DNA from: a virus
Length of the DNA stretch: 48,360 nt
Strand: one strand, 5' to 3'
IMG/VR virus record: IMGVR_UViG_3300017917_004546
Location: 1 to 48,360 of that record
The position numbers were made by a program, and so were the translations under genes. The notes beneath the pieces are model-generated. The model had not been told where the DNA came from, did not search any database, and saw only the letters and a list, made by a program, of their open reading frames with translations. Below are positions 5,467 through 48,360 of the stretch, piece by piece. Each line of letters starts with the position of its first letter. The first letter of the stretch is position 1.

Positions 5467-5469
5467 GGT

Positions 5470-5898: not shown

Positions 5899-5900
5899 AA

Positions 5901-6401: not shown

Positions 6402-6465
6402 TTTATCGTCTCCATATTTATTTAATAGAATTGGTATGCTATTATCTTTAATATTTGTCATAAAA

Positions 6466-13445: not shown

Positions 13446-13447
13446 GA

Positions 13448-14140
13448 TTAAAATTTAACAGCAACAGTGTCCCATGTATTATTAATAATAGTATAGTTAT
13501 TTTTTTTAAGCGTATTTTCCATATTAATTAGACAAGTATTTTCTAGGGTATGGGTTTCCATGCATATAATTTTTGGTTGAATTTTATTCCAGTTAATTTG
13601 ATTAAATATTATATAGTCGTATCCCTCTGTGTCCGAAACATAAATATCTACGGTATTAATTTTGTTATTGGTTAAAAAAAAGTTAAGGCTTTGTGTCTCT
13701 ATTTGGAGATTTTTAATTCTTGTTTGTATAGTTTTATAAAGATGGGTATCGGATAAATTTTGACTTAATTTATAGCCTCCGTAACCAGAACCTAAAAAGT
13801 TTTTACTTTTATCCAAAGTTCCAAGACCCTTGCACCAAGTCGGCAAGTCGTCGTATGGATAGACATAACTTATATCTTCGAATCCTTCTTTATCTGATAT
13901 TGCTAAATTATAACAATCAACCCAGTCATAGCCTGTATAATTTTGTTGTAATTCTCTAAACAAATCTGGTATCGGCTCTAAAATATGACTACGAATTTTA
14001 TGTTTAATAATACTATTTCTACATACATCGTCTTGAACACCGTCGTTACCTCCTATTTGGAGAAGTATCGGTGAAAAATTTTCAATTTTGTTATTTTTAT
14101 CAATGTATTGATCTATAATTTTTGTTAAATCATATGTCAT
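13448..14140 (-). CDS. FkbM-family methyltransferase
   Basis: A 230-residue SAM-dependent methyltransferase of the FkbM type. The N-terminal PILLQIGGNDGVQDD replaces the usual DVGANxG SAM loop. HILEPIPDLFRELQQNY is the acidic motif after strand 2. VDIYVSDTEGYDYIIF matches the family's KIDxEGxE signature. Members methylate hydroxyls of sugars or polyketides. Flanked by sugar-biosynthesis genes, its likely product is an O-methylated glycan. Confidence 0.82.
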   Translation of the reverse strand: MTYDLTKIIDQYIDKNNKIENFSPILLQIGGNDGVQDDVCRNSIIKHKIRSHILEPIPDLFRELQQNYTGYDWVDCYNLAISDKEGFEDISYVYPYDDLPTWCKGLGTLDKSKNFLGSGYGGYKLSQNLSDTHLYKTIQTRIKNLQIETQSLNFFLTNNKINTVDIYVSDTEGYDYIIFNQINWNKIQPKIICMETHTLENTCLINMENTLKKNNYTIINNTWDTVAVKF

Positions 14141-23872: not shown

Positions 23873-24652
23873 ATGTCACAGGTAGTAGTATCTTTAACAA
23901 CAGTACCTAATAGGCTTATGGAACCCAAAGACTATATGGGCACTAGACTAGGACTAAAAACGCTATTAGAACAATCATATAAAAATTATGAAATTCATTT
24001 TAATATCCCGCATTCTTATAAAAGAACTGGTGAACAATTACATATTCCCGATTGGCTATATGATTTCGAACAATCAAATCCTCATTTAAAGATTTTTAGG
24101 ACAAAAGATCTTGGTTCTATTACTAAAATAATACCAACTCTTGAAAGAATAAATGATCCAGATACTATAATTATAGTAGCAGACGATGATCTGTACTATA
24201 TGGACGGCATGATAGAAGCTCATCTAGAAGCTAGAGAAAGATACCCAAACGCTGCTATAGGCTTCGCTGGAATGAGCGCCCTCGACGGCTCATGCCACTT
24301 CTGCACAACACTAGCCAAAGATACAAGGGTTAAGATACTAGAAGGATACAAAACAGTATCATATAAAAGAAGTTTTTTTGACATAGAAGAATTTAAAACA
24401 AATTTTGTATCTAAATCATGGAATGACGACCATACGCTATCTGCTTATATGGGATATAAAAATATACCTAAAATAGTTATGTCTTATGAAAATGATACTG
24501 ATTTTTCTCCTAGAGTTGAATCATTTCCAGTTATTGGTCACACACCAATAGAAAGAGGTGGCTGTTATGAGTTTAGGAATAATTCTGATTTACAAAATGA
24601 ATCTGAAATTAATATAAATAATTTTTATAAACTAGGCTATCTTGAGCGTTAA
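23873..24652 (+). CDS. GT-A-type glycosyltransferase
   Basis: A 259-residue protein. VVVSLTTVPNRL is the first strand, LKTLLEQSYKNYEIHFNIP the second, and TIIIVADDDLYY near residue 103 the metal-binding DDD. KSWNDDHTLSAYM is a plausible acceptor/catalytic helix. It closes the plus-strand operon and overlaps the end of the convergent subtilisin gene by 4 nt, with no terminator between. Confidence 0.8.
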   Translation: MSQVVVSLTTVPNRLMEPKDYMGTRLGLKTLLEQSYKNYEIHFNIPHSYKRTGEQLHIPDWLYDFEQSNPHLKIFRTKDLGSITKIIPTLERINDPDTIIIVADDDLYYMDGMIEAHLEARERYPNAAIGFAGMSALDGSCHFCTTLAKDTRVKILEGYKTVSYKRSFFDIEEFKTNFVSKSWNDDHTLSAYMGYKNIPKIVMSYENDTDFSPRVESFPVIGHTPIERGGCYEFRNNSDLQNESEININNFYKLGYLER

Positions 24653-25584
24653 GATTTTACTGGATAAATAATACCATATCCTTGATATTTTTTAATAGCT
24701 GGATATTTTATATCATTTAGTGGTTTGCAATATTCTTTTAATATACTTACATAATCTTTATAAGAATTAAGTTGGTATTGATTATATTTTAAATTATAAC
24801 TCAATAATAATGATGCTATACCAACCGCAAATGGATTGCTCATACTTGTTCCGCTCATTTTAGCATATTTATTATTTGGTATACATCCCATAATATTGTG
24901 TCCTGGAGCCAAAAAATCTAAGCTTTCTCCACTACATGAAAAATTTGTTCTTTGTAATTTTTCGTCTATTGCGCCGATTGCTATAGTATTGGGATATTTA
25001 GCTGGATACATAACATCGTTTTCTGCTCCACTGTTACCAGCCGCACAAAAAATAATTTTATTTCTACTTTCAGCATAATTAACAGCTTTTTCTATATCAA
25101 TATTAGATCCACCGGATCCTAAACTCATAGTAATAAAATTAACATTTTTTTGATCTGCTGCCCAATATAATCCATCAACTATAGATCCAACAGATCCTGT
25201 TCCTTGATCTCCTAATACTTTAACTGGCATTATTTTAGTTTTTGGTGCTACGCCAACCATACCTCTTCCATTATTACATGCCGCTATTGTTGATGATACA
25301 TGAGTTCCGTGTCCATTTCTATCCATTGGGCTACTATTTTTTTCTACAAAATTTTTACCATCTACTATATTTGGCTCTATATCTGGGTGTGATAAATCAC
25401 ATCCAGTATCTAAAACTGCGCACACAACTCCTTCTCCGTCGCTAAATTTCCAAGAATTTGGAATATTAAATTGTGTAATTTCCCAACCCATCATTTGTGG
25501 ATCATTTGGAGATAATCCAAATAATAGTTCTGATGTATATGGTAATAAACCTATTTTATCTTTTGAAAACCATTTTTTAAACAT
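24649..25584 (-). CDS. Subtilisin-like serine protease (S8)
   Basis: A 311-residue subtilase with the full catalytic set: Asp59 (AVLDTG), His92 (NGHGTHV), oxyanion Asn184 (AAGNSG) and Ser247 (MSGTSMSNP). It lacks a clear signal peptide and long propeptide, as intracellular subtilisins do. About 40 residues precede the domain and about 40 follow. It starts directly behind the trypsin-like protease gene, so two serine proteases of different clans are co-expressed. Possible targets are host envelope or defence proteins. Confidence 0.92.
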   Translation of the reverse strand: MFKKWFSKDKIGLLPYTSELLFGLSPNDPQMMGWEITQFNIPNSWKFSDGEGVVCAVLDTGCDLSHPDIEPNIVDGKNFVEKNSSPMDRNGHGTHVSSTIAACNNGRGMVGVAPKTKIMPVKVLGDQGTGSVGSIVDGLYWAADQKNVNFITMSLGSGGSNIDIEKAVNYAESRNKIIFCAAGNSGAENDVMYPAKYPNTIAIGAIDEKLQRTNFSCSGESLDFLAPGHNIMGCIPNNKYAKMSGTSMSNPFAVGIASLLLSYNLKYNQYQLNSYKDYVSILKEYCKPLNDIKYPAIKKYQGYGIIYPVKS

Positions 25585-25585
25585 T

Positions 25586-26344
25586 TTATTCTTTCATTAA
25601 TTCTTGTGTAATACTCTCTATCCAATCTTTGTATACACTAACTCTTGTATGAGCGCTTACAGCTCCATATTTTGATTTTCCTTTATTAATTTTATCTTCT
25701 ATAACGCCAGAATGTATACCAGCAAGATCATTTCCTATAAATAATCCACCACCACTATCTCCTGGAGCAATTATAAACTCTAATTCTGTTTTATCTATTT
25801 TTACTGACGGTGAACAAAATAATAAATATTCATTTACTGCATCAATTATATTTGATCCTGCTCTTTTTTTACTTTCTTTACTAGGTAATATTCCAGTAAT
25901 AAATGTTCCAGTAGAACCATATCCAGCTAAAGAACATATTGATCCATTTTCTTTATTATCTTTATATATATCTGGATACCAATCTAGTCCTATATCTCCA
26001 GAAACTAAACAGACCGCTATATCATGTCTTCCAAATTTTTCGTAATCATAATCTTGATGAACTACTATTTTTTTAATTGGTAATAATTTTGTACTAAAAA
26101 TTACAACACAAGTTTTATTATTATGAAATATATGGGCGGCTGTAATAATTATATTGTTTTTATAAGCAACTACTGATCCAGAATATGGCGTGTCGTCCTG
26201 TTTTCTACCTATGATCTGACCAATATATGGAAATTTTGATCCATAATTTATATATTTTTCATCTGGAGTGCTAGGATCTATTGTTCCAGAAAAAGATAGT
26301 GTTCCATATACTATCGCTAATAATACCAAAAATATTTTTATCAT
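25586..26344 (-). CDS. Secreted trypsin-like serine protease (S1)
   Basis: A 252-residue chymotrypsin-fold protease. Residues 1-19 form a signal peptide (MIKIFLVLLAIVYGTLSFSG). The triad is His71 (TAAHIF), Asp108 (HDIAV) and Ser197 (GDSGGGL). AAAGGG-like sequence 8 nt before the ATG supports this start. The first 74 nt lie inside the HNH gene in another frame. Export through the host inner membrane implies action in the periplasm or outside the cell. Confidence 0.9.
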   Translation of the reverse strand: MIKIFLVLLAIVYGTLSFSGTIDPSTPDEKYINYGSKFPYIGQIIGRKQDDTPYSGSVVAYKNNIIITAAHIFHNNKTCVVIFSTKLLPIKKIVVHQDYDYEKFGRHDIAVCLVSGDIGLDWYPDIYKDNKENGSICSLAGYGSTGTFITGILPSKESKKRAGSNIIDAVNEYLLFCSPSVKIDKTELEFIIAPGDSGGGLFIGNDLAGIHSGVIEDKINKGKSKYGAVSAHTRVSVYKDWIESITQELMKE

Positions 26345-26664: not shown

Positions 26665-27672
26665 TTATAATACTTGAGAAGCTATCAAACATCCTTTTGC
26701 AACAGCATGAAGAGGATCATCGGCATGGATCACTTCTTTTATTGGTAGTGGAAAATTATTTTCTTTTAATTTTTTATGAAAAGTTTCCACATATCCTTTT
26801 GCCAATGACGTTCCACCAGCTATAACTATTTTAAGTGGTTCTTTAAATTTTGGTAATGCTTTATGATTACTTAAAGCAACACTTAAATATTTTGTAGTAT
26901 AATCTATTAGTCTATCATAATAAGAACACACTGCTTCTAAAACCGGATTCTCATTAGTTTGACCAATCACATAATCGCCTTGTTCTTTTTCAGCTTGAAC
27001 AACACTATCTGGTTCTCCCATAGCAACAGATACCATACGATCTATCCAGTCTCCAGATTTTGTTGTGCTAAAAGTTACTGTTGGTTCTCCATTAAGCATA
27101 ACACAAACATTTGTCATGCCAGCACCACAACTCACACCTATTCCTGTATAATCTGTATCTTCTAAACCAGCATAACATAGCGCCTCTGCTTCATTAATTG
27201 CTCTAGCATCGTACCCCTGTTCTGCTAAAATACTCTTTACAACATCTTCGTGATAGCCAACATCAAAATCATCATCTTCTTGATCGACTGGTTGTGCTGG
27301 TTTACAAAATATTAATTTTTCACCAGGCTCTGATGCTATCCCGACTACTTCTTTTAGAATAAAAGCTAGTACTTTTTTTGCTTCTTTTTCTTTTGAAGAA
27401 ACGACACCTTTATGCATAGGTCTTTTTGCGCTATCATTTCTTTCAATAGCTTTTTCTATTGCATCTTTTCCTAATAATATAAATGAATTATCACTGTCTT
27501 TGATAAAAATTTTACCATTTAATCCTTTTTCGATCATTTTTGTTGCTACTGGTGTTGTTGGTTTAATAATATAGAAAGCGTCTCTAAATTCTTTATACTC
27601 TATATTATTACTATTATTTTTAGCTAAAACAATATAACTTGTGCCAACATCCAATCCCACACCATTACTCAT
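26665..27672 (-). CDS. Actin-like ATPase (ParM/Alp type)
   Basis: A 335-residue protein of the actin/Hsp70 fold. GVGLDVGTSYIVLA is phosphate-1, TGIGVSCGAGMTNVCVML near residue 180 phosphate-2, and KIVIAGGTSLAKGYVETF near residue 285 the adenosine motif. Length and order match ParM-like filament proteins. A strong GGAGG Shine-Dalgarno sits 8 nt before the ATG. No ParR-like partner is evident next to it. Likely roles are DNA segregation or positioning of phage material. Confidence 0.85.
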   Translation of the reverse strand: MSNGVGLDVGTSYIVLAKNNSNNIEYKEFRDAFYIIKPTTPVATKMIEKGLNGKIFIKDSDNSFILLGKDAIEKAIERNDSAKRPMHKGVVSSKEKEAKKVLAFILKEVVGIASEPGEKLIFCKPAQPVDQEDDDFDVGYHEDVVKSILAEQGYDARAINEAEALCYAGLEDTDYTGIGVSCGAGMTNVCVMLNGEPTVTFSTTKSGDWIDRMVSVAMGEPDSVVQAEKEQGDYVIGQTNENPVLEAVCSYYDRLIDYTTKYLSVALSNHKALPKFKEPLKIVIAGGTSLAKGYVETFHKKLKENNFPLPIKEVIHADDPLHAVAKGCLIASQVL

Positions 27673-30913: not shown

Positions 30914-31521
30914 TGCTTATAGCAATTATTAATATTTAATATTATGCCTAATAAGTATAAACTAAATTCTTTTACATATACACATCCATTACTTTGCGAT
31001 GGTATATTATTGGTATTTTTCCAGTAAAAATTATTATCTCTATATTCGAATCTATTTGTATAGTCGTTGTGTCCGTAGATTGCGCCTGGTCTAATTATGA
31101 TAGAATCAATACTTAGTGATAGTACATATTTTTCTAATTCTTTTTTATTGTAACAATACCAGTAGTACGGATCATTTACATTTTGTTTGTTTAAAACATT
31201 ATCATCTAGTACACTTTGAGTAGATATTAAAAGATATTTCTTACAGTTAATATACTGTATTGTGTTTTTATACTGTTCAACATTATAACATGAAAAATCT
31301 ACCACTATATCAAAAAATTTATTCATAAGATTTGAACAAGACAATCCGTTGTTCCTATCGATATAGATATGTTCTAAATCTTTAAATATTGTTTTATTGG
31401 TTACTCCTCTATTTGCTAGTGATATATTAATATTAGTATTTTGTATTGTTGTTTCCACAAAGTCCCTACCAACCATTTGTGTTCCGCCAAGAACTAGAAT
31501 TTTTAAATTGCTATTATCCAA
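30892..31521 (-). CDS. NAD(P)-dependent epimerase/dehydratase-like protein
   Basis: A 209-residue protein with an SDR Rossmann start (KILVLGGTQMVGRDFVE) and IVVDFSCYN for strand 4. IIIRPGAIYGHND is the conserved post-catalytic segment. Tyr and Lys appear as WYCYNKKELEKYV. Atypical SDRs of this length occur as sugar epimerases and as RNA- or chloroplast-type proteins. It overlaps the DUF1501 gene by 8 nt. Confidence 0.68.
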   Translation of the reverse strand: MDNSNLKILVLGGTQMVGRDFVETTIQNTNINISLANRGVTNKTIFKDLEHIYIDRNNGLSCSNLMNKFFDIVVDFSCYNVEQYKNTIQYINCKKYLLISTQSVLDDNVLNKQNVNDPYYWYCYNKKELEKYVLSLSIDSIIIRPGAIYGHNDYTNRFEYRDNNFYWKNTNNIPSQSNGCVYVKEFSLYLLGIILNINNCYKHQILQIP

Positions 31522-32788
31522 TTATATCTCCTAAAATTTTACCGTTATCAATAATTTTAACTGGCCTATTTCCTGGAGCTATTAGGTGTTTATTATGATC
31601 AATGCCTAATAGATTATATAGTGTGGCGCCCCAGTCCTCTACACTCACCGGATCGTCCTGTGGTTCGCTTGCTGTGTCGTTGCTGGAGCCGTATACCAGT
31701 CCTTTTTTAATTCCGCCCCCTGCCATGACTATAGAAAAAACACGCGGCCAATGATCTCGTCCAGCAGTTGGATTTATTTTTGGAGTACGACCAAATTCTG
31801 TAGCAACACAAACCAGTGTTGAATCTAATAGACCTTTTTCATCTAGGTCATTTATTAATGCAGAAAAAGCTTTGTCAAAAGATGGTAACTGACTACCTAT
31901 ATTTAGCGCTATATTATCGTGATGATCCCATCCGCCATAAGTTACATTCACGAATCTTACACCCGCCTCCACCAATCTTCTGCTTAGTAGTAATCTCATT
32001 CCAGCAGCAGTTTTACCATAAATTTCTTTGGTCTTATCATCTTCTTTGTTAATATCGAATGCTTGTATGGCCTGAGACGAATTCATAATATCATAAGCAT
32101 TTTGATAAAAAGAATTCATAGAGTCCAAAGAGTCTGACTTTTGCCTAACATTGAACTCTTTGTTGACTATTTCTAGCATCGCTTTTCTTTTATCAAATCT
32201 ATTTACAGATATTCCATCTGGTAATGTTAAATCTCTAACTTTAAAGTTTGGATCTTCTGGATTTCCACCAAGACTAAATGATGAATAACTGTGACTAAGA
32301 TATCCGGCACCAGCAAATTCATTAGGTACATTTGGTACTGTTATATACGGAGGTAAATTATTCCTGACTCCTAATTGTTGACTGACTACTGATCCTAAAC
32401 TTGGATACTGAATGGCTGGACTAGGACGATATCCAGTAAACATATTATTAGTTCCACGCTCATGTGCTGTTTCACTATGAGTCATAGATCTGATAATACT
32501 AATTTTATTCGCTATTTTTGCAGTTTCTGTTAAGTATTGACTAAAAAATATTCCAGGAATACTAGTTGATATACTATTTAAAGGACCCCTATAATCAACC
32601 GGACTATTGGGTTTTGGGTCAAATGTTTCTTGATGAGCATATCCACCCGGCAGATAAATATAAATCACTGACTGTGCTTTTGCTTCTTTCACAGAAGGTT
32701 CTTCTGCTCTTAATTTTAGGTAGTCTCCAAGATTTAATCCTAGATATCCTAAAACACCCGTATTTATAAAGCCTCTTCTGTTAAACAT
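31514..32788 (-). CDS. DUF1501 protein with twin-arginine leader
   Basis: A 424-residue protein of the DUF1501 (sulfatase/phosphatase-fold) family. It begins FNRRGFINTGVLGYLGLNL, a Tat-type leader. IYIYLPGGYAHQETFDPKP is the family's N-terminal motif, and GAVRF-like GVRFVNVTYGGWDHHDN and EFGRTPKINPTAGRDHWP match the conserved metal-site-like motifs. ATG 32788 has AAGGATA upstream and is preferred to one ten codons earlier. The usual PSCyt/DUF1553 partner is not adjacent; a second DUF1501 gene is 11 kb away. Confidence 0.9.
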   Translation of the reverse strand: MFNRRGFINTGVLGYLGLNLGDYLKLRAEEPSVKEAKAQSVIYIYLPGGYAHQETFDPKPNSPVDYRGPLNSISTSIPGIFFSQYLTETAKIANKISIIRSMTHSETAHERGTNNMFTGYRPSPAIQYPSLGSVVSQQLGVRNNLPPYITVPNVPNEFAGAGYLSHSYSSFSLGGNPEDPNFKVRDLTLPDGISVNRFDKRKAMLEIVNKEFNVRQKSDSLDSMNSFYQNAYDIMNSSQAIQAFDINKEDDKTKEIYGKTAAGMRLLLSRRLVEAGVRFVNVTYGGWDHHDNIALNIGSQLPSFDKAFSALINDLDEKGLLDSTLVCVATEFGRTPKINPTAGRDHWPRVFSIVMAGGGIKKGLVYGSSNDTASEPQDDPVSVEDWGATLYNLLGIDHNKHLIAPGNRPVKIIDNGKILGDIIG

Positions 32789-32800
32789 AAAATATCCTTT

Positions 32801-32820
32801 TCTGATTATATTATACACTA
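32801..32820 (-). promoter_or_regulatory. AT-rich promoter-like element before DUF1501 gene
   Basis: AGTGTATAATATAATCAGA lies 13 nt before the DUF1501 start and contains a TATAAT and a variant of the recurrent GTGTATAA motif. It follows a terminator, so it could restart transcription. There is no good -35. Confidence 0.35.
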
Positions 32821-36526: not shown

Positions 36527-37381
36527 TCAAATATAATCTTGATCTGGATCGTATTCCTCATCATCTTCATCTTCATACTGATTCCAGTAATCATCATCAT
36601 ACTCGTCATACAACTGCTCTTCATCGTCATCATAAGAGTCTTCACTAAATTCAGCCTTGTAAAGAGGCTTTAGTAGTTCGCCTTGATATTCACCGACAAC
36701 TTCATATCTACAAGTACGAAGTTTCTCATGATTACAATCACTAGGGACGCTTACCACATCCTTTGGATTGATCTTAACAATCATAATATGATCACCATTA
36801 TCAGCACTGCCATAATTAGCAACATAGTTCAAAGCACCAGCATGAAGTCCCTGAGAGCAACCAACACTACGATTGTCGTCAACCTTAGCCCTATTCATTT
36901 GGCAAACTTTGCCAACATGGTTGTCAAATGTACCAGCATACTTATCCATATAATCGCTACGAACAGCCTTGTATGCTAGAAAATGACCATCCTCAGTAAT
37001 TGGTAAATGCTCATGTTCCAAGAAATCATAAAGTTCCTTTTGACTTTGCATACTAGGATTCTCCATAAGATTATTCAAGAAGTTTACAAGAGGCTGAAAC
37101 GGTAGTCCCTTGCTCATAAACTCCAGAATACGCTTACTAATACTACCATGAACTTCTTCACCATCAAAAAGCACCTTGCCATTCTTGACTTCAACCAGAC
37201 CATCGCTAAATGATGATACTGCCTTTTCAATATCTACCAGATCTAGCAACTCATCATTAGTTGCTGTTGGTAGAGCCTCAAGGATCAGCTTGTAATTAAT
37301 ATGATCTGGAATAACTTGATAAGCCTTATTATTCAAGATCAACGTCAAATTACCATCAACCCACATAAACGGAACGCTCAT
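36527..37381 (-). CDS. rIIB: rIIB-like protein
   Basis: A 284-residue homologue of phage T4 rIIB. NLTLILNNKAYQV opens the protein and SISKRILEFMSKGLPFQPLVNFL is the family centre. FLEHEHLPITEDGHFLAYKAVR and CSQGLHAGALNYV follow, the usual signature. The last 45 residues are an Asp/Glu/Tyr tail. rIIB with rIIA supports growth in lysogens and restrains premature lysis in T4. It lies 26 nt after rIIA. Confidence 0.85.
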   Translation of the reverse strand: MSVPFMWVDGNLTLILNNKAYQVIPDHINYKLILEALPTATNDELLDLVDIEKAVSSFSDGLVEVKNGKVLFDGEEVHGSISKRILEFMSKGLPFQPLVNFLNNLMENPSMQSQKELYDFLEHEHLPITEDGHFLAYKAVRSDYMDKYAGTFDNHVGKVCQMNRAKVDDNRSVGCSQGLHAGALNYVANYGSADNGDHIMIVKINPKDVVSVPSDCNHEKLRTCRYEVVGEYQGELLKPLYKAEFSEDSYDDDEEQLYDEYDDDYWNQYEDEDDEEYDPDQDYI

Positions 37382-37407: not shown

Positions 37408-40062
37408 TTATTTGATCAAAACACTTAGACTATTTCTTAACTGTTCAATACCGTTTTCATCAATAGTTACAAACCATGCTGGCGGACTATAGTAACGATT
37501 ATGATTTACTCTAAGTGGATTAGAGGAACCTATTCCGTTCAATCCCGCATCAGCACCGTTTGATTCCAACGTACTGCTCACAATATACTTGAGCATCGGC
37601 ATCTTGTCAACCTCCGCTTTAAACTTTTTTCTAAGATCACTACTTTTCGTTATCGACTCACAAAAATCTTTGGATTCTTGAGAAATTGATACTATCTTAG
37701 ATGTATAATCTTCACTATACATAGTATTAATCTCGCTCTTTAAGATATTAAACTCTTGAGTTTGTTTACGAATCTTCTCAGGATCAATACCATTCATATT
37801 ATGCTTTGCTAATATTTTTGCCATAACAGCAAAGTATTCTGACTTCTTACAAAACTTCATATCAAAACTATTATGAATAACATGAGCAAAAAAGTAATGA
37901 ATCATCCATTGATCTACTAGATTGCAAAGTTCCGATCCACCAATATACTTATCATAATCAATACCAAAAATGCTTAGAATAGTAACCGCTATGTGCCTAT
38001 CTGCACGAATCCTATAATAACCATACGACTCATTCTTCTCGTCTGCGTTATACTGTTCAGTACAGTAGTCTACAATATTCTTATATGAACCAACTTCTCC
38101 GCAGAGTTTACTCATCATGCTCTTTAATTGAGGCTTGATCCAAGCATTGAAATCAACAAGATTCAAATCTTTAATCTTGCCAACAGCACTCTGCTTGATA
38201 GCAAGAATATTCTTGTCTTTCAATAGATTATGAAGAGTATGATTTTTATCTTTAATGATTTTATTAAGATAAGCGATAGATGGAAACCCTTCCACCGAAG
38301 CATACCTAATAATAGGAATATAAATTGTTTCGTCTTGATCTTCAATAGTTTCATAGGTATCTTCGTCTACTTCTCTTAGAAGATCAGAATCATTTATTCC
38401 ATTACCAGATAGCACTAGTTTATCATTAGCGTCTGGACAACCACCAATAATAAAAACCTCACCAGCACTAATCTGACCAAAAGAAACACTACTCTTGCGT
38501 GGCCCCTTACTAAGTAGACTACGATAATCGGAAACATTAACTATGTGGGTTTCTCCACCGATATCACTAATGATATCATCAAAACCTTCTGTGGAATCTT
38601 CTGGATGACTACTATCAACCATAAGATAAGCAAAGCAATCATTTTGATTACAATACTTTGTCACAATCTTTTTGGCAGTTTCTTCACCCTTAACATCACA
38701 GCGGAAAAAGATCATTTTACCACTCTTTTTGGTTCCGCTCCAATAGTATTGAGGAACTCCCTTGAGTGTTTCGTTATGGATTTTATCTGTTAGATAAACC
38801 ATACGACGAGAACGATAACCAGATGTTCTAAAATTAAAAACATACAACTGCTTATTTTTCTTGAACTTATATTCAAGATCTTTACCACTAGTTAATTCGT
38901 GGGTCTTGCCAGACTGGTCGGTCCATGACGCACCAGCGGTCCATCCACCAGCAAGATCGCTCAGATTATAATAAGTCTGATAAGCATCTACCAGATTAGT
39001 ACACTGAGTAATCTTTTGGGTCATATCTTCTTTGAGTTGAAGATAAATATCCTGAGTTCTTTCACGCAAAACTTTAAGAACATTCTTTGTGTACTGTAAA
39101 CCTTCACGACTCACATCCATTTCCAATTCACCAATATCAAAATTGATTTCAAGATACAAGCCCGACCCTAGAACCTCCTTGACTAGATTCTTCCAGTTAT
39201 CCACATCCACCTTTTTAAAGGTACGATTCCATTTCTGGATAGCGTCATTGGAAGTGTCTTTTTCTGCTTCTCCAATAATCTTTGAACTATCAACAGGATA
39301 AGCAATATTACCCATGATAGCAACAATACCACTATCAGCATTGTTATACGCTGAAGGATATTGATCATTATTATTCGATAGTCTACCAATCCTCCATCCC
39401 TTACCATCAATAACAAAATTGGTATAAGAGTACGAATGATCGGATAGATTCTCCCCAAAACCACCCTCAATAATTGGCTTCATCTTGAAATAATGGAAAA
39501 TTCTTTTTGCTTTGGTAGTAAACTCGCCAAAGTCACACTGTTTAACAGCAAAACTAATTTCAAGACCGTTAGGCTCTTTAGTTGGACTAATATCGAACAG
39601 ATTAAGACTAGGAACACCGTTCTCGTCCATAGCAGCAATATAAGAATACTTAGTTCCGTTGTAATAAGATACTGTGCTAAAACTCTTGGTATAAGCAAAC
39701 GGACTCTTACTACCTAATCCAAGACAACCAACAAAATCATTACTATCATTCTTGTTGCTTGCCCCATAAGTGGTATACAGTTCCTCCATATCCTGCTGAC
39801 TAAGACCCGTACCATAATCACGCACGGTAAAAGATGGAACCGCTTGTGTTGGCAGAATAACCTTAAAAGGATTCTTATTACCAGCAGCAACATGAGCATC
39901 ATAAGCATTTGTGCTTAGTTCACGAATAACAGCCTGAACTTTGTCTGAATACAAAGAATCAGACAACAGCTTAAACATTTTAGAACTTTGCTGAATTGTA
40001 AATTGATTCGATGAGGAGATTCCTCTAGAATGAATTTCTACAGTCTTATCTGCCAATTTCAT
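37408..40062 (-). CDS. rIIA: rIIA-like GHKL ATPase
   Basis: An 884-residue protein with the Bergerat ATP site at its N-terminus: IRELSTNAYDAH (Glu48, Asn52), VRDYGTGLS (Asp82) and GCLGLGSKSPFAYT (G-rich loop at 112-125). This matches T4 rIIA, which is shorter (about 725 residues); the extra length lies in the C-terminal half. A TTGACA-N17-TATACT promoter precedes it. Together with rIIB just downstream it is the clearest sign of a T4-like evolutionary link. Confidence 0.88.
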   Translation of the reverse strand: MKLADKTVEIHSRGISSSNQFTIQQSSKMFKLLSDSLYSDKVQAVIRELSTNAYDAHVAAGNKNPFKVILPTQAVPSFTVRDYGTGLSQQDMEELYTTYGASNKNDSNDFVGCLGLGSKSPFAYTKSFSTVSYYNGTKYSYIAAMDENGVPSLNLFDISPTKEPNGLEISFAVKQCDFGEFTTKAKRIFHYFKMKPIIEGGFGENLSDHSYSYTNFVIDGKGWRIGRLSNNNDQYPSAYNNADSGIVAIMGNIAYPVDSSKIIGEAEKDTSNDAIQKWNRTFKKVDVDNWKNLVKEVLGSGLYLEINFDIGELEMDVSREGLQYTKNVLKVLRERTQDIYLQLKEDMTQKITQCTNLVDAYQTYYNLSDLAGGWTAGASWTDQSGKTHELTSGKDLEYKFKKNKQLYVFNFRTSGYRSRRMVYLTDKIHNETLKGVPQYYWSGTKKSGKMIFFRCDVKGEETAKKIVTKYCNQNDCFAYLMVDSSHPEDSTEGFDDIISDIGGETHIVNVSDYRSLLSKGPRKSSVSFGQISAGEVFIIGGCPDANDKLVLSGNGINDSDLLREVDEDTYETIEDQDETIYIPIIRYASVEGFPSIAYLNKIIKDKNHTLHNLLKDKNILAIKQSAVGKIKDLNLVDFNAWIKPQLKSMMSKLCGEVGSYKNIVDYCTEQYNADEKNESYGYYRIRADRHIAVTILSIFGIDYDKYIGGSELCNLVDQWMIHYFFAHVIHNSFDMKFCKKSEYFAVMAKILAKHNMNGIDPEKIRKQTQEFNILKSEINTMYSEDYTSKIVSISQESKDFCESITKSSDLRKKFKAEVDKMPMLKYIVSSTLESNGADAGLNGIGSSNPLRVNHNRYYSPPAWFVTIDENGIEQLRNSLSVLIK

Positions 40063-40102
40063 TTGTGTTTACTCCAAAAATTAGTTTACCTGTGATGGTT
40101 CT

Positions 40103-40131
40103 AGTATATCATCGGCTTCCTGTATTGTCAA
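40103..40131 (-). promoter_or_regulatory. Strong sigma70-type promoter for rIIA-rIIB
   Basis: TTGACA (40126-40131), a 17-nt spacer and TATACT (40103-40108) face the rIIA start 41 nt away. Near-consensus hexamers with ideal spacing suggest host RNA polymerase uses it early. The -35 overlaps the HNH gene stop. Confidence 0.75.
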
Positions 40132-40796
40132 GCGTGACGAAAAATTTTTGCAGATTTCCTGAGATTATCGGACGCCCATAGTGGTTGACAATTAGTATAA
40201 TGGAATAGTTTTTCTAACTCAAGATCATTTGTAGCAGAACTTAGTGGGACTATATGATCAATGTGCCATTCTCCGTAATTTTCCCAGGTCATATTATTTT
40301 GAAACTTAGACTCGATATACTTTTTGAACTCGTCCCATTCTAGTCCGATTAGTTCTTTGGATCTTTTGCTTCTATTCGTTCCCTTATAATAATCATATAA
40401 CCTATTCCTATAATTAGTTTTTATTTTGAAAATGGGATCATTTTTTCTTCTTTGTTTTGATCTTATCCTTACTTTTTGATTTATTTTATTTTTATTTTTA
40501 GTTCGATATTCCTTATAATATTCTGGGTTGTATTCATCAAACCTCTTTTTATGTTCAATAATTTTTTCTTTATTGTTTTTATTCCATAACTTATTACGAT
40601 TAAGTATTTCCGATCTATTGTCCTTATATCTTGATGTATAATAAGATTGATTTTTACTATAAAATATTTTATTGTTTTGTTTTTGACATTCTCTACAAAT
40701 ATTTTGTAATCCGTCCTTAGCAGATTTTCTTTTATTGAATTCGGTTTTAGATTTTTGTTGGCAACACTTTGAACATTTTTTATCCAAGCTCTTCAT
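40128..40796 (-). CDS. HNH endonuclease with N-terminal Cys motif
   Basis: A 222-residue protein. Residues 6-40 hold CSKC and CREC pairs typical of phage HNH proteins. A long Lys/Arg/Asn-rich middle follows. The C-terminus has the HNH core EWHIDHIVPLSSATNDLELEKLF with CQPLW. ATG 40796 lies 17 nt inside the upstream gene, while the upstream extension does not resemble the family. Its location between rIIA and small genes is typical of a mobile, free-standing homing nuclease. Confidence 0.8.
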   Translation of the reverse strand: MKSLDKKCSKCCQQKSKTEFNKRKSAKDGLQNICRECQKQNNKIFYSKNQSYYTSRYKDNRSEILNRNKLWNKNNKEKIIEHKKRFDEYNPEYYKEYRTKNKNKINQKVRIRSKQRRKNDPIFKIKTNYRNRLYDYYKGTNRSKRSKELIGLEWDEFKKYIESKFQNNMTWENYGEWHIDHIVPLSSATNDLELEKLFHYTNCQPLWASDNLRKSAKIFRHA

Positions 40797-42293: not shown

Positions 42294-42376
42294 TGGGACT
42301 GGTGGGAGTCGAACCCACACTCCTAGTCGGAAATGGATTTTGAGTCCATCGCGTATGCCAATTCCGCCACAGTCCC
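42294..42376 (-). tRNA. tRNA-Leu (CAA)
   Basis: An 83-nt type II tRNA. The 7-bp acceptor stem GGGACTG/CAGTCCC, discriminator A, D-arm, anticodon stem ATGGA/TCCAT with loop CTCAAAA (anticodon CAA, reads UUG), a stem-bearing long variable arm and T-arm GTGGG TTCGACT CCCAC are all visible. CCA is not encoded. Phage tRNAs often match codons that the phage uses more than its host. Confidence 0.95.
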
Positions 42377-42855: not shown

Positions 42856-43734
42856 CTATTTATCGATAAAAATATTATCGAATTCTTCCTTCAAAAATGC
42901 TCTTATTTTTGCTGCGTTTGGGCTACTTTTTAGATTTTCATATAGTTTTTCTTGACTAGAATTTCTAAAATTTTCTATCTCCATTCCTTCACCGAAAGTC
43001 TTTTCCGCCTCTATCAAAAGAAATTTAATAGTATTTTTAAATTGAGGATATGTTTTCCAGTATTCATTATCATGTTCCTTAACGGCCATAGCAAAACAAA
43101 TAGCATAAATACTAAAATCCAAACACCCGCTAACAGCATCAACTCTTTCATTTAGAATACCATTATTATAATCTTCAACTGCACTTTTGCTTCCTAATAT
43201 ATAAGAATTCCATTCATCAATAATATATGATGGCATATCATTCCAATCCACAATATTTTTAACAAAGTAGAGATTATATCTGTATGATCTTAAATCTGGT
43301 GGAATATATTTAGTAACTAAATGCATACTAATATTAGATTCTTCCAATACTATACAGCGAGAATTTAAAACATAAAAAACATTTAATTTTTTACTCAATG
43401 CTTTACTATATAAATTTCTAAGATGAGATGTTATACCATGAGAAGTTTCATGCACATTGATTCTTCTACTATCTTGATCACCGTATGGTTTTTCAAAACT
43501 ATGTGTTAATACATCTCCGTATATTGTATTTTCTTCAATTTTACGATACTTATCAACCTCTGTAAATACTAATCCGCTTTTTTCTTTTGGTTTTGGTTTA
43601 TTTTCTGGAATAGTTTTAGGCTTATCATCCGGCATAATAACCACAATAGTATTGTCTGGTTGATTATTTTCATAGTAGTAATAACCCAGTGCCGAACTTA
43701 TAACTATTAGGGATAATATTTGTTTAGTTGTCAT
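42856..43734 (-). CDS. Membrane-anchored HExxH (putative metalloprotease) protein
   Basis: A 292-residue protein. Residues 5-21 form a signal-anchor helix (QILSLIVISSALGYYYY), followed by a Pro/Lys-rich linker to about residue 53. RINVHETSHGITSHL provides HExxH (His95, Glu96, His99), the zinc motif of many peptidases; the third ligand is not obvious. ATG 43734 overlaps the thioredoxin-like gene by 11 nt and starts right at the membrane helix. It is the last gene of the exported-protein operon. Confidence 0.65.
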   Translation of the reverse strand: MTTKQILSLIVISSALGYYYYENNQPDNTIVVIMPDDKPKTIPENKPKPKEKSGLVFTEVDKYRKIEENTIYGDVLTHSFEKPYGDQDSRRINVHETSHGITSHLRNLYSKALSKKLNVFYVLNSRCIVLEESNISMHLVTKYIPPDLRSYRYNLYFVKNIVDWNDMPSYIIDEWNSYILGSKSAVEDYNNGILNERVDAVSGCLDFSIYAICFAMAVKEHDNEYWKTYPQFKNTIKFLLIEAEKTFGEGMEIENFRNSSQEKLYENLKSSPNAAKIRAFLKEEFDNIFIDK

Positions 43735-44179
43735 GATTAATAGATTGTAGCCAATCCATGTAGTTATCATATATGTATCCTGCCTTTCTTGATTTCTCTA
43801 TGTTCCTAGTCCCTGAACAATCTATAACCACAGATGTTGGTATAACATTGTACTTAAATTCTTTTGCTAATTTTTTATTATCGTCTATATCTAGGAGACA
43901 AATAACAAACTTGTCTTTAATTTTTAGTTTATCAAAATCATTTTCTAAAATTGTACAATACTTGCACCATATACTTTTTAGTATAACTAATAATAATCTT
44001 TTTTCTTTTTTTGCAATCTCTAGCGCCGCCTTATAGTCTGTATAAACTATTGATTGCTTTGGAGTATTAACTACTGGTACTACTATAGATACTGGAATAT
44101 CTTTCCTAGTAGTATGTTTTGATGTATAAAAAAACACAAAACCTAAAATTAGAATTGCTATTAAATATTTATTAATCAT
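43724..44179 (-). CDS. Membrane-anchored thioredoxin-fold protein
   Basis: A 151-residue protein. Residues 5-19 form a hydrophobic anchor. The domain from about residue 45 shows KSIWCKYC as the CxxC redox site and NVIPTSVV as the cis-Pro strand, resembling DsbD-gamma/TlpA-like thioredoxins of the periplasm. It follows the PspC gene by 1 nt. It could reduce or form disulfides, or help haem attachment to the CxxCH cytochrome encoded upstream. Confidence 0.82.
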   Translation of the reverse strand: MINKYLIAILILGFVFFYTSKHTTRKDIPVSIVVPVVNTPKQSIVYTDYKAALEIAKKEKRLLLVILKSIWCKYCTILENDFDKLKIKDKFVICLLDIDDNKKLAKEFKYNVIPTSVVIDCSGTRNIEKSRKAGYIYDNYMDWLQSINHDN

Positions 44180-44180
44180 T

Positions 44181-44360
44181 TTATTCTTTCGGCATTATAA
44201 TAGCTAGTATTAAATAAATCCATAATAATAAAGTTCCTGTTGCAAAAGTTCCTAAAAAGAAAAGCAATCGTACTATTGATGTGTCCCAACCTAAATATTC
44301 CGCAATTCCAGCACAAACACCAAAAATAAATTTGTTGGATGATTTTTTAAGTTTTGACAT
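44181..44360 (-). CDS. PspC-domain membrane protein (59 aa)
   Basis: A 59-residue PspC protein. KFIFGVCAGIAEYLGWDTSIVRLLF is the family signature, and a transmembrane helix (TGTLLLWIYLILAIIMP) ends it. In bacteria PspC-domain proteins sense or respond to envelope stress. ATG overlaps the DUF1501 stop in a TAATG junction, and the stop sits 1 nt before the thioredoxin-like ATG, so it is fixed within the operon. Confidence 0.85.
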   Translation of the reverse strand: MSKLKKSSNKFIFGVCAGIAEYLGWDTSIVRLLFFLGTFATGTLLLWIYLILAIIMPKE

Positions 44361-45685
44361 TATGCTATAACTCCTTGATGAACATTACCATAAACGTCTG
44401 TTAATCTAAAATCTCTACCACTATATCTATAGGTTAGTCTAGTGTGATCTAGACCCATTAAATTTAATATCGTGGCATGTAAATCATGAATACCCATTTT
44501 ATTCTCTATTGCTTTGTGTCCAAAATCGTCTGTCTGCCCATATCTTATACCTCCTTTAATTCCACCCCCCGCCATAAAAATACTATAACCTTGATGATTA
44601 TGGTCGCGTCCTGTGGCACCCTTTTGTATGCCTGGAGTTCTACCAAATTCTCCACCGCACACAACTAAAGTTTCATTTAGCATACCGCTTTCCTTTAGGT
44701 CTGTTAAAAGTGCTGATATAGGTTTGTCTATTGCTAAGCATTTATCTGTCATATTTTTTTGAATCTCTTGATGAAAATCCCATGTACCAATACCTATTTC
44801 TATAAATCTTACCCCCGCTTCTGCAAATTTTCTAGCCATTAAACATTGTTTACCAAATGAGTCTGTTTCTTTTTCCCCTATGCCATATTTATTTAATATA
44901 TTAATAGGTTCATTGCTTATATCCATAACAGAAGGAACCGATGTTTGCATCTTAAATGCTAATTCATATGATTTAATTAGTGCCTCAAGATTAGAATTTA
45001 CTGTATCATTAAATAATTTTACATTATTGATACTCTGTAATAAATCAAGATTTCGTCTTTGCTGTTTTGAATCAATAAAATTATTATTCAGGTTAGGTAT
45101 TGCTTGTTTAATATTTCCGGCATTAATAGATGTTCCCTGAAACATTGCTGGTAGAAATGCGCTACCATAATCATTTGGACCTATTGTTGCGTTTATTGTT
45201 ATAAAACCAGGTAATTCCTCATTTTCTGTTCCAAGACCATAAACAAGCCAAGAACCCATGCTTGGTCTTACAAATTGAAAATTACCAGTATGTAAAAATG
45301 ATCTAGCCTGTTCATGATTACCAGAATCTGTATACATTCCATTTATTAAACACAAATCATCAGCATGGTTTTTTAACATAGGAAAAAATTCACTAATCAT
45401 TAAACCGCTTTGTCCAGATCGGGAAAATTTTGCTTGACTAGTTAATAGTGTCCTATTTTTATCTACTGGATCTTGTTCTGTGTTTCTAGATTCTAGTAAT
45501 GGCTTATGATCAAAAGTATCAACATGAGATGGTCCACCATTTAAATAAATAAATATAACTCTTTTTGCTTTTGCAGGAAAGTGGGTGGTGTTACCGATTG
45601 TTTCTTTGGCTAATAGAGAAGATAGACCAAGAAATCCAAAGCCACAGGATGTTTTTAATAACATATTTCTACGATTAATTATCAT
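44360..45685 (-). CDS. DUF1501 protein with twin-arginine leader
   Basis: A 441-residue DUF1501 protein. INRRNMLLKTSCGFGFLGLSS is a Tat-type leader. VIFIYLNGGPSHVDTFDHKP is the N-terminal motif, and AGVRFIEIGIGTWDFHQEI with GGEFGRTPGIQKGATGRDHN are the conserved sulfatase-fold-like motifs. It lies 9 nt after the three-domain cytochrome gene. DUF1501 and PSCyt1-DUF1549-DUF1553 neighbours are a standard pair in Planctomycetes; their substrate is unknown, with polysaccharide use suspected. Confidence 0.92.
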   Translation of the reverse strand: MIINRRNMLLKTSCGFGFLGLSSLLAKETIGNTTHFPAKAKRVIFIYLNGGPSHVDTFDHKPLLESRNTEQDPVDKNRTLLTSQAKFSRSGQSGLMISEFFPMLKNHADDLCLINGMYTDSGNHEQARSFLHTGNFQFVRPSMGSWLVYGLGTENEELPGFITINATIGPNDYGSAFLPAMFQGTSINAGNIKQAIPNLNNNFIDSKQQRRNLDLLQSINNVKLFNDTVNSNLEALIKSYELAFKMQTSVPSVMDISNEPINILNKYGIGEKETDSFGKQCLMARKFAEAGVRFIEIGIGTWDFHQEIQKNMTDKCLAIDKPISALLTDLKESGMLNETLVVCGGEFGRTPGIQKGATGRDHNHQGYSIFMAGGGIKGGIRYGQTDDFGHKAIENKMGIHDLHATILNLMGLDHTRLTYRYSGRDFRLTDVYGNVHQGVIA

Positions 45686-45694
45686 AATTCCACC

Positions 45695-48076
45695 TTATTT
45701 TATAGTTCGAAACTCTCCAGTAGATATCAGCATTTGAATTATTTGGGCATATAATTTTTGTTCATCTTTTGAATCAGAGGACGATATATATTCTTCTATA
45801 AAAGAATATTCTGAATCATTCACATTTCTAGATAAATATTGTAAATACAGATAGTTAATTTTTTCTTTAGTTGTTTTATTATTTAGATCATAAAGCATAT
45901 GTTTGGCACTATCCATACACAAATTAATAATATCTGTATTATTCATCAGATATAACGCTTGTGTCGGAACAGTTGTTACGGCCCTATTTGTTGATATTAA
46001 GTTATTATCTGGTCTATCAAAAAGATCCAACATTTCTATACTAAAATCTCTTGGGCTGGGTAAAAATATAGTTCTTGTTGGCTTATTATTTATAACTTTA
46101 TTAATGCTTCCGCCAACTCGTTGTTTATCTATTGTCTGTAAAAACACATTATTTTCATTATGATATAATAGTTTATTATGTATATCTAAAATAATATCGC
46201 GAATATTTTCTGCAATTATTCTTTTTTCATTCATTCTCCAAAAATATATATTATCAGGATCTATTTCATAGTTAGTATCATTATATGAAGCGCTTCTTTT
46301 ATATGTATTTGATGTAACTATTTTTTTTATTAGATATTTATTTGATTTTTTATGTTTAATAAAATCCTGTGCTAAAAAATCTAAAAGCTTAATATTGCTC
46401 GGTTCTCCAGACAAAGTACCAAAATTATCAAAACTATCAACTATGCCTTTTCCAATCAATATATTCCATACCCTGTTTACATGAAGTCTGTATGTAAAAG
46501 TGTTATCATCATCCGCTATCCAGTTTGCTAACTCTAATCTACCACTATTTTTACTAAAAAATGGATTATTTTTTTTATTTGTAGTTGTAAATATTTCTGG
46601 TAAACCCCTTAATACTTCTTCTCCAAGATTATTAATTTCTCCACGAATATGTAATTTAGTGCTGGGTTTAATTTCATTTTTTTCAGAAACACACATGACA
46701 GGATCACAAGATAACATATTTTTTATTATTATAGTGTGTGACGCTTCGTCTATAGCATTGTATTTTTCTTCTAGTTGTTTTACTAGTTTTTCAATCTCAT
46801 TTTGAACTGCTTTTTTATCATTCTCATTCAGGTTAGTATTATAATTATAAATAGAATTAATTTTAGAATATAGATTATTTATATCACATATTAGTTTCCA
46901 TTTAGCATAATCTTTTTGTTCGTATATTATTTTTCCAGTTTGATTAATCGTAAATCCAAAATTTCCCATATATCCAATATTGTTATTTCCATGATTAACT
47001 CCATCGAATGTATTTATATTATCTAATATGCTATATATCCTATAATAGTCTTGTTGTGTAAATGGATCAAATTTATGATCATGACATCTGGCACAACTTA
47101 ATGTAATACCAAGAAAACCTCTAGTAAGAGTATCGATTTGTTCATCTATTAAATCGGCACGATATTGTTTGTCTCCAGATGTTAAATTTTTTGTACCTAT
47201 TGTTAGGAATCCAGTTGCTATTAAATGTTTATTATATTGCGCATAATTTTTATTTTCTAATAAGTCTCCGGCCACTTGTTGTTTAATAAAAATATCGTAC
47301 GGCAAGTCTTCATTAAAAGAATCTATTACATAATCTCTATATCTCCAAGCATACGGATAAACTATATTTTGATCTTTCCCAGTAGAATCCGCGTATCTGG
47401 CTATATCTAACCAATGTCTTGCCCATTTTTGTCCAAATCTAAAATCACTTAATAATTTATCAACTAATTTAGTATACTTTTCACTATCTGTATTGTTTAC
47501 ATAAGAAATTACTTCTATTGGTTTTGGTAGCACTCCTATTAAATCTACATAAAGACGTCTTATATGGGTATAGTCATCAGCTATTTCTACAGGAATTAGT
47601 TTATTTTGTTTTAACTGTAGTTCTACCAATTTATCGATACTTGTAGATATGTTATTGTTTACTGGTCTAAATGACCAAAATTTCTTTGCTTCTCCAATAT
47701 CTCTTTTTTTTGTATCTTGAGGAACCCTGGGGTCTGGAGCGCCCAATTGTATCCATAAATAAAAGTCTTGAATGACATTATCTGGTAATTTTTTAGATGG
47801 AGGCATTTCGTATCCATCATGACGTATTGCTTGTATTAATAAACTATCATTAGGATTTCCTGGTATTATTGATGGTCCACTGTCTCCACCTTTTAGCAAG
47901 CCCTCTTTTGTATCAAGAACCAAGCCCCCTTTTTTATCCTTATTTTTAGAAGAATGACAGGAATAGCATTGCGAGGCTAATATCGGTCTAATCTTAGATT
48001 CAAAAAAATCTATTTGCGGATTAGCAAACACAGTGTTGCTGAATAGTACTAAGATTAATATTACCAATATTTTCAT
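45695..48076 (-). CDS. PSCyt1-DUF1549-DUF1553 c-type cytochrome (Planctomycete type)
   Basis: A 793-residue exported protein with a signal peptide (residues 1-19). The PSCyt1 domain has a haem site CYSCH (37-41) and MPPSKKLPD near 91. DUF1549 (about 145-350) includes RRLYVDLIGVLP, WARHWLDIARYADS and a second CARCH (328-332) in the CARCHDHKFDPF motif. DUF1553 (about 510-760) includes RLELANWI, HVNRVW and RDFSIEMLDLFDRPD. Usual members are 800-1100 residues, so this one lies at the short end but is intact. AAGGAC precedes its ATG. Confidence 0.93.
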   Translation of the reverse strand: MKILVILILVLFSNTVFANPQIDFFESKIRPILASQCYSCHSSKNKDKKGGLVLDTKEGLLKGGDSGPSIIPGNPNDSLLIQAIRHDGYEMPPSKKLPDNVIQDFYLWIQLGAPDPRVPQDTKKRDIGEAKKFWSFRPVNNNISTSIDKLVELQLKQNKLIPVEIADDYTHIRRLYVDLIGVLPKPIEVISYVNNTDSEKYTKLVDKLLSDFRFGQKWARHWLDIARYADSTGKDQNIVYPYAWRYRDYVIDSFNEDLPYDIFIKQQVAGDLLENKNYAQYNKHLIATGFLTIGTKNLTSGDKQYRADLIDEQIDTLTRGFLGITLSCARCHDHKFDPFTQQDYYRIYSILDNINTFDGVNHGNNNIGYMGNFGFTINQTGKIIYEQKDYAKWKLICDINNLYSKINSIYNYNTNLNENDKKAVQNEIEKLVKQLEEKYNAIDEASHTIIIKNMLSCDPVMCVSEKNEIKPSTKLHIRGEINNLGEEVLRGLPEIFTTTNKKNNPFFSKNSGRLELANWIADDDNTFTYRLHVNRVWNILIGKGIVDSFDNFGTLSGEPSNIKLLDFLAQDFIKHKKSNKYLIKKIVTSNTYKRSASYNDTNYEIDPDNIYFWRMNEKRIIAENIRDIILDIHNKLLYHNENNVFLQTIDKQRVGGSINKVINNKPTRTIFLPSPRDFSIEMLDLFDRPDNNLISTNRAVTTVPTQALYLMNNTDIINLCMDSAKHMLYDLNNKTTKEKINYLYLQYLSRNVNDSEYSFIEEYISSSDSKDEQKLYAQIIQMLISTGEFRTIK

Positions 48077-48114: not shown

Positions 48115-48219
48115 TTACACCAAACTTGTAGTTATTAGATAATTAATAGACGAAGGATTAAACCCCATCACAATCATTGTTTGCTCTAGACCTATCAACA
48201 TTTGTAATTCTTGAAACAT
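48115..48219 (-). CDS. Small hypothetical protein (34 aa)
   Basis: A 34-residue ORF (MFQELQMLIGLEQTMIVMG at its start) with a clear GGAG ribosome site 7 nt before the ATG, overlapping the end of the upstream gene's leader by a 2-nt gap. Composition is moderately hydrophobic and it could be a small membrane peptide. Function unknown. Confidence 0.45.
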   Translation of the reverse strand: MFQELQMLIGLEQTMIVMGFNPSSINYLITTSLV

Positions 48220-48221
48220 TT

Positions 48222-48360
48222 TTACTCCAGTATTATTTTTAACATAATATAGTTTGGCTTGTCGTTGTCTATCAACTGTAGAGTTTTAACCTTTCCCTTG
48301 CCAAAAAAATCAAGACCAACGTGTATAAAAGGACCGCCTTCTAAATCTATATGATATGGA
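48222..48360 (-). CDS. Partial hypothetical protein, 5' end outside window
   Basis: An open frame enters from the right edge and ends at TAA 48222-48224, giving 45 visible C-terminal residues (HIDLEGGPFIHVGLDFFGKG, then a polar segment and a closing strand). It is the upstream neighbour of the 34-residue gene, 2 nt away. Too little is visible for assignment. Confidence 0.55.
   Translation of the reverse strand, partial: PYHIDLEGGPFIHVGLDFFGKGKVKTLQLIDNDKPNYIMLKIILE

Follow-up and report, generated by a model that had tools for sequence, protein, structure and literature searches.

The viral record IMGVR_UViG_3300017917_004546 of IMG/VR raises the question of how a pair of genes known from the chromosomes of Planctomycetota and Verrucomicrobiota, encoding a PSCyt1-DUF1549-DUF1553 cytochrome and a DUF1501 protein, came to lie on a phage-like contig, and what such a pair might do there. 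We analysed this linear record in its entirety, and its 48,360 bases (48.4 kb) are referred to below as the window. The pair is the conserved part of a host-derived auxiliary module, the kind of which is already known; its content and its repeated capture are new. The initial annotation of this DNA knew of no account of the pair as phage cargo with PspC and thioredoxin partners, and our literature search found no description of the pair in phages; the excerpt of PMC5418858 mentions a weak DUF1501-like match of a Pseudomonas phage protein of 61 amino acids (aa).

The cassette and its phage context

In the order of transcription, the cassette (42856–48076) consists of five minus-strand genes, namely those for the cytochrome (45695–48076; 793 aa, with CxxCH sites at C37 and C328), the DUF1501 protein (44360–45685; 441 aa), a PspC-domain protein (44181–44360; 59 aa; PF04024, 1.2e-20), a thioredoxin-like protein with the motif WCKYC (43724–44179; 151 aa; Thioredoxin_7, 1.3e-8) and an HExxH protein (42856–43770; 304 aa), the last recognised from its sequence and by a motif script as having HETSH at residue 107. 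The domains named at these positions in the initial annotation are borne out by Pfam, with matches well above the curated cut-offs throughout (PSCyt1 60 bits, PSCyt2/DUF1549 243, PSD1/DUF1553 203, PspC 73.5, Thioredoxin_7 35, and DUF1501, PF07394, 451.9 against a cut-off of 27), and the single window cytochrome holds PF07635, PF07583 and PF07587 together. The close coupling of the five genes that it described is likewise evident in a gap of 9 nucleotides (nt) between the cytochrome and DUF1501 genes, an overlap of 1 nt (TAATG) between DUF1501 and PspC, a gap of 1 nt between PspC and thioredoxin, and an overlap of 47 nt between thioredoxin and HExxH, or of 11 nt if the latter starts at its second Met. 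Signals or helices had been claimed for all five products; a crude hydropathy and motif script, used in place of a trained signal-peptide predictor, agrees in calling a hydrophobic stretch at the N-terminus of the cytochrome, of the thioredoxin-like protein and of the HExxH protein, and an N-terminal twin Arg on the DUF1501 protein, and the hydrophobic stretch of PspC, which is under the size limit of the script, was read from the sequence.

Downstream of the cassette lie two phage markers, RIIA (37408–40062, minus strand; phrog_612, 2.5e-114), the end of which is 2.8 kb away, and RIIB (36527–37381, minus strand; phrog_609, 1.3e-72). The guanine and cytosine (GC) content of the cassette, 28–33%, falls within the range of the record. 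Two metagenomes supplied three other contigs (L014; L015; L010/L013) on which genes for DUF1501, the HExxH protein, RIIA and RIIB stand in the same order; outside a swapped block that is described below, these have 72–97% DNA identity to the window. Of the more distant relatives, G004 and G020 have phrog_2 terminases, and G020 RIIB as well; the window-like contig G013 has matches to DNA polymerase and ribonucleotide reductase in addition to RIIA/RIIB. Because three other contigs carry the linkage beside RIIA/RIIB, and distant ones carry the pair with a true terminase, the cassette is not a chimera or host DNA. Had the DNA been joined near 42.8 kb, or had the cassette lain in a host chromosome, the initial annotation would have given up its claim of phage cargo; both are contradicted by the three contigs with the same linkage, and in the clade of the window chimerism and host contamination are ruled out by composition, RIIA/RIIB and the repeated linkage.

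For the viral loci at large, a chimeric contig or host DNA mistaken for virus is barely credible as an explanation. All the records are indeed metagenomic and linear, the two diverged terminase copies of G004 suggest that data of this kind may include mixed contigs, and one contig, G022, is without a phage hallmark family among the three of its proteins that were tried, though it shares genes with other records. Against this stand the identical junctions in three other contigs, the uniform composition, the phage genes (terminase, RIIA or RIIB) borne by the contigs themselves, and the separate viral clades seen in the trees. Moreover, each of the 12 viral records with a match among the 17 first searched has a single cytochrome gene, as against 13–96 in each of ten cellular genomes, which were chosen for holding near relatives. 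The cassette is thus almost certainly genuine phage cargo.

Two further searches for hallmarks were uninformative: PF07068 had no match anywhere in 17 records, and phrog_15 matched in one of 25, solely in a suspect gene of G013 (55590–57578), which was not used as a terminase, its match looking like an intein-type insert. As to the two large-terminase genes of G004 (12119–14140 and 153732–155765), these are 72% identical and lie near the ends of its 160 kb contig, which may reflect either a duplication or a mixed contig.

Distribution, exchange and selection of the pair

Scans of IMG/VR with a cytochrome query (11 loci) and an alignment query (27 loci) found the cytochrome in 30 different records in addition to the window, some of which are close to identical; a tblastn search had no match in 50,697 annotated phage records. 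The viral loci fall into group A, which is window-like, group B, comprising G001, G004, G005 and their kin (the longest 195 kb), and group C, comprising L059–L069 (the longest 190 kb). In 27 of the 31 viral loci, window included, no more than 1 kb separates the cytochrome and DUF1501 genes; the remaining four are two cut contig ends and two loci with a gene between the pair. The same adjacency is seen in 59 of 76 cellular loci. Among the first-searched viral records, PF07394 is found in 17/17 and PF07583 in 12/17. With the cytochrome present in 30 further records, and with the close relative L013 lacking the PspC and thioredoxin genes while it keeps the pair and the HExxH gene, the operon of five genes proposed initially holds as a tight cluster in the window but not as a widely conserved unit; in L014, an extra DUF1501 gene stands between PspC and thioredoxin. 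The conserved unit is the cytochrome–DUF1501 pair.

Since it is among the few genes common to seven records, the pair had been suspected to be a core gene of the phage group. This was ruled out with 23 larger contigs chosen from the best 80 of 392 and the best 80 of 402 loci for RIIB and terminase, only two of which (G013 and G004, both known before) have the cytochrome and five, in a scan that took in 29 contigs, some DUF1501. All 14 contigs above 90 kb are within the 23, and the cytochrome is in two of these. The figure of 2/23 is slightly low, in that the contigs of L007 (71.9 kb) and L018 (59.5 kb), which are in those lists and were known to have the pair, lie outside the 23. One negative contig, G030, ends about where the locus would start. 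The pair is therefore accessory in these phages. Separately, cytochrome or DUF1501 frames are split in two at L018 7605–9791, L011 913–2209 and L061 9992–12777, by sequencing error or decay.

Comparison of the window with its close relatives L014 and L015 shows how the pair moves. The upstream flank (48159–48360, no strand assigned), at the edge of the exchanged block, has 94–96% DNA identity to both in blastn, and the region from thioredoxin or HExxH through RIIB has 93–97%; the intervening cytochrome–DUF1501 block has only 65–68%. So divergent a block inside such flanks shows that one version of the pair has taken the place of another, as a unit, in phages that are otherwise about 95% identical. 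Against L015, one alignment at 89% spans from inside DUF1501 to past HExxH. At the upstream edge, L014 and L015 have a further DUF1501 gene and one for a 624 aa protein. In L015 the latter (5156–7030; G013 143296–145170) lies between DUF1501 and cytochrome genes; it has an N-terminal membrane stretch and no Pfam family, and we read it as VWA-like.

Both genes were shown to be under purifying selection in the phages, with ratios of nonsynonymous to synonymous substitution rates (dN/dS) of 0.06–0.09 for the cytochrome and 0.04–0.10 for DUF1501 in five close phage comparisons each, and of 0.07 (dS 1.8) for DUF1501 between the window and L013. The ratio of 1.0 for thioredoxin between the window and L015 reflects almost no changes and is uninformative.

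Capture from planctomycete and verrucomicrobial relatives

To place the viral pair, we built a cytochrome tree of 97 rows, of which the 76 cellular ones come from the 80 best-scoring loci and are mostly from Planctomycetota and Verrucomicrobiota, with a few from Acidobacteriota. The viral pair is nested among these cellular homologues. Groups A and B together form one clade of 12 rows, with a support of 100 in the Shimodaira-Hasegawa-like approximate likelihood ratio test (SH-aLRT), and group C lies elsewhere, its nine rows having a support of 68 alone and of 100 together with the single Opitutaceae locus L136. The DUF1501 tree (99 rows) agrees, with one clade of 16 viral rows (100) and another of ten viral rows with L136 (100). 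By our reading of its neighbours, L136 is part of a bacterial chromosome; there the DUF1501 gene precedes the cytochrome gene, an order that recurs in seven loci of group C, whereas the cytochrome comes first in 57 of the 59 adjacent cellular pairs. A single viral origin of the pair was rejected by the approximately unbiased (AU) test under a mixture model on 43 of the 97 rows, in which the constraint of all viral cytochromes to one clade gave a p-AU of 4e-5; in the same analysis group C as one clade had a weak support of 34. Two viral clades among cellular homologues, together with this rejection, therefore show at the level of sequence that the pair was captured at least twice from relatives of the Planctomycetota and Verrucomicrobiota.

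The viral pairs share with chromosomal ones, such as PSD1/PSC2 of Rhodopirellula baltica in the excerpt of PMC2754498, the same domains, the CxxCH sites and the twin Arg of DUF1501; they also share the gene order, outside the seven reversed loci of group C. They differ in being on phage genomes, in being single-copy in the matched records and in forming separate clades, and the cassette of the window differs in its GC of 28–33%. The amplification on the cellular side is also conspicuous in R. baltica, for which the same excerpt gives 41 copies of each domain. As host-derived functional genes kept under selection by phages of lytic type, the pairs resemble auxiliary metabolic genes such as the viral norB/nirK of oxygen-depleted waters, in the portion of PMC8115048 that describes them. 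What sets the present case apart is that the two genes are linked, that both products are probably exported and that one of these is a cytochrome.

The ancestry of these genes and a DUF1559 gene in related phages suggest that the hosts are bacteria of the Planctomycetes–Verrucomicrobia–Chlamydiae (PVC) type. The DUF1559 protein is prepilin-like, with an N-terminal methylation motif (PF07596), and is encoded at L005 57–1043 (G004 39446–40432; 1.9e-39) and L053 17070–18056 (1.8e-37); we take this family to be a planctomycete hallmark. Phages inferred to infect planctomycetes among others, by gene content and clustered regularly interspaced short palindromic repeats (CRISPR), some of them larger than 100 kb, appear in the excerpted text of PMC9040852. 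At the edge of the cassette, the window has a tRNA-Leu (CAA) gene (42294–42376) with 80–95% identity to stretches in many genomes of Planctomycetota, the one phylum compared.

The window has a second DUF1501 gene (31514–32818, minus strand; 434 aa; PF07394, 3.3e-110), overlooked at first, which adjoins that for RuvB and belongs to a different viral clade. Its nearest relatives, at 55–57% identity, are the counterparts in group C phages, and with the copies in L065, L067 and L068 it forms a viral-only clade (support 100), in which long branches were flagged. Elsewhere in the DUF1501 tree sits L017, a viral record with DUF1501 and no cytochrome, which may be a further capture or a misfiled contig.

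A possible role in the envelope of the infected cell

The cytochrome is predicted from its sequence to be of a diheme type. Both CxxCH sites are invariant in 10/10 phage sequences and in 61/61 sequences of a mixed alignment, and by motif count 71 of 73 cellular cytochromes have two such sites and the remaining two have one. In a predicted model with a predicted local distance difference test score (pLDDT) of 89.3, the PSCyt1 domain (residues 20–116) matches FoxE-type cytochrome c, the Rhodobacter iron oxidase (PDB 5mab), with Z 10.3, 94 residues aligned and 28% identity. This likeness of fold is confined to that domain: the DUF1549/DUF1553 parts had no Foldseek match with E < 0.001 in PDB and BFVD, and the best structure matches outside the cytochrome domain had Z of at most 6.0, which is not evidence for a new fold.

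The predicted model of the DUF1501 protein (pLDDT 90.0) has the fold of the alkaline phosphatase superfamily, which includes the ENPP phosphodiesterases and sulfatases (Z 19.8, root-mean-square deviation 3.3, 245 residues aligned); with an identity of only 11–15% the likeness is one of fold, in a predicted structure. We understand that Pfam likewise groups DUF1501 with alkaline phosphatases. Its residues H124, D303, H305, E346, R349 and H362 are invariant in 75/75 sequences, and the two Arg of its N-terminal pair are nearly so, being present in 73/75 and 74/75. It is thus a predicted candidate for a hydrolase of phosphatase or sulfatase type. In PHROGs, the cytochrome and both DUF1501 proteins of the window are without a family at E 0.01. 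Among the small partners, the thioredoxin-like protein has thioredoxins among its matches to solved structures; the HExxH protein has no Pfam family above the cut-off and a single solved-structure match, at chance level.

The initial annotation suggested that the cassette may remodel the host envelope, exploit surface polysaccharide or preserve the integrity of the envelope during infection. The predictions above lead us to favour, tentatively and at a little short of even confidence, the reading that the pair is an accessory module, derived from hosts, of large tailed phages, with exported redox and hydrolase components acting in the envelope of the infected cell. During infection, the cytochrome would be exported by the general secretory (Sec) route and DUF1501 by twin-arginine translocation (Tat), and the cytochrome c maturation system of the host would attach two hemes to the former. 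Where an exported thioredoxin-like protein is present, it might keep the CxxCH thiols reduced, which is a guess consistent with its motif and its position. The cytochrome and the hydrolase could then act jointly in the envelope on an oxidisable substrate with phospho- or sulfo-substituents, most likely a surface or periplasmic carbohydrate, and the benefit to the phage might be that the infected cell is supplied with carbon or electrons, or that its surface is altered. Judging from sequence features, the exported redox-plus-hydrolase action in the envelope is itself probable; that carbohydrate is the substrate is more doubtful, though well worth entertaining. It accords with the excerpt of PMC5615132, in which host genes of this kind are near sulfatase genes and some have carbohydrate-binding modules. 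The favoured reading also draws on other redox genes that adjoin the pair in some phages, for thioredoxin in the window and G005 and for ferredoxin in G001 and L053.

Several observations weigh against this reading. The same excerpt, while suggesting carbohydrate, states that nothing is known of the function. Constraint is weaker in some comparisons, with dN/dS of 0.19 for DUF1501 between L014 and L015 and, at high dS, of 0.24 for the cytochrome and 0.18 for DUF1501 between the window and L015. A small WCxxC-type protein is encoded within 3 kb of the pair in 0/76 cellular loci, so that a general partnership with thioredoxin is not supported. The ferredoxin gene, of the 4Fe-4S type, comes immediately after DUF1501 in L037 (11276–11662; G001 51276–51662) and L053 (13769–14149, with a TAATG overlap); no export signal was noticed on its product, which need not act with the exported pair. 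As for the host, a comparison of the last 20 kb of the window with 392 Planctomycetota genomes matched 253, with no evident spacer or prophage among the matches listed; these fall on the tRNA-Leu gene (the most), the two DUF1501 genes, the cytochrome and RuvB.

An exported pair could instead alter outer glycans or receptors and so block the adsorption of competing phages. Such surface remodelling or superinfection exclusion is in line with the predicted export, with the variability of the pair and its swapping as a block between close phages, and with the abundance of sugar-related genes that we read in the translations of the window. A simple glycan-modifying enzyme, however, needs no cytochrome, and the host cytochrome family is predicted in the excerpt of PMC5615132 to be periplasmic or cytoplasmic rather than at the surface, so that we regard this explanation as unlikely. 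The sugar-related genes in question form a long run (7163–31521), read as glycosyltransferases, methyltransferases and sugar-nucleotide enzymes from translations of which few were put to a family search, and the run seems far in excess of what a phage that modifies glycans would require. Within it are genes for a subtilase (24649–25584), a trypsin-family protease with an initial hydrophobic stretch (25586–26344) and an actin-like protein (26665–27672; PF25216, the Volactin family, 1.4e-61), a name that we associate with haloarchaea; a ClpP-like protease is encoded at 1803–2504.

Packaging of the two enzymes in or on the virion, for action at entry, is brought to mind by G020, where the pair (120672–124812) has probable head genes on one side and the terminase (133724–135625) on the other. 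The N-terminal export features of both proteins point rather to export from the infected cell, and in the window and G004 the pair is not among the recognised structural genes; we hold this to be quite improbable. A signal-peptidase-like gene (PF10502, 3e-12) lies just upstream of the cytochrome in L067 (9511–9975).

The target might, finally, be no nutrient but the internal membrane system, or the architecture of the envelope, in PVC hosts. Excerpts of PMC4452313 and PMC4960237 report an earlier study that associated gene clusters containing DUF1501 with PVC bacteria that possess intracellular membranes, and PspC, a membrane-stress protein, is encoded in the cassette of the window and also near the pair in L016. 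That link is, however, a correlation of gene presence, DUF1501 has matches in Caulobacter and Deinobacterium too, and PspC is not a constant partner, all of which leaves this target improbable. The same low credence attaches to the bolder proposal that PVC phages have more than once made the DUF1501 module their own, so as to rearrange, during infection, the envelope or the internal membrane space that is peculiar to the host; if it were true, the viral pair would be a minimal, single-copy form of a system of which hosts have dozens of copies, and its core function could be read from the phages.

Returning to the favoured reading of an exported redox-plus-hydrolase module, selection and at least two captures suggest that one pair alone is useful within an infection. 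The viral pairs may thus be seen as small natural versions of a system that is amplified in planctomycetes and verrucomicrobia. They add to the range of phage cargo a heme protein that is probably exported, together with its linked hydrolase-like partner, and they offer gene markers for the viruses of these bacteria.

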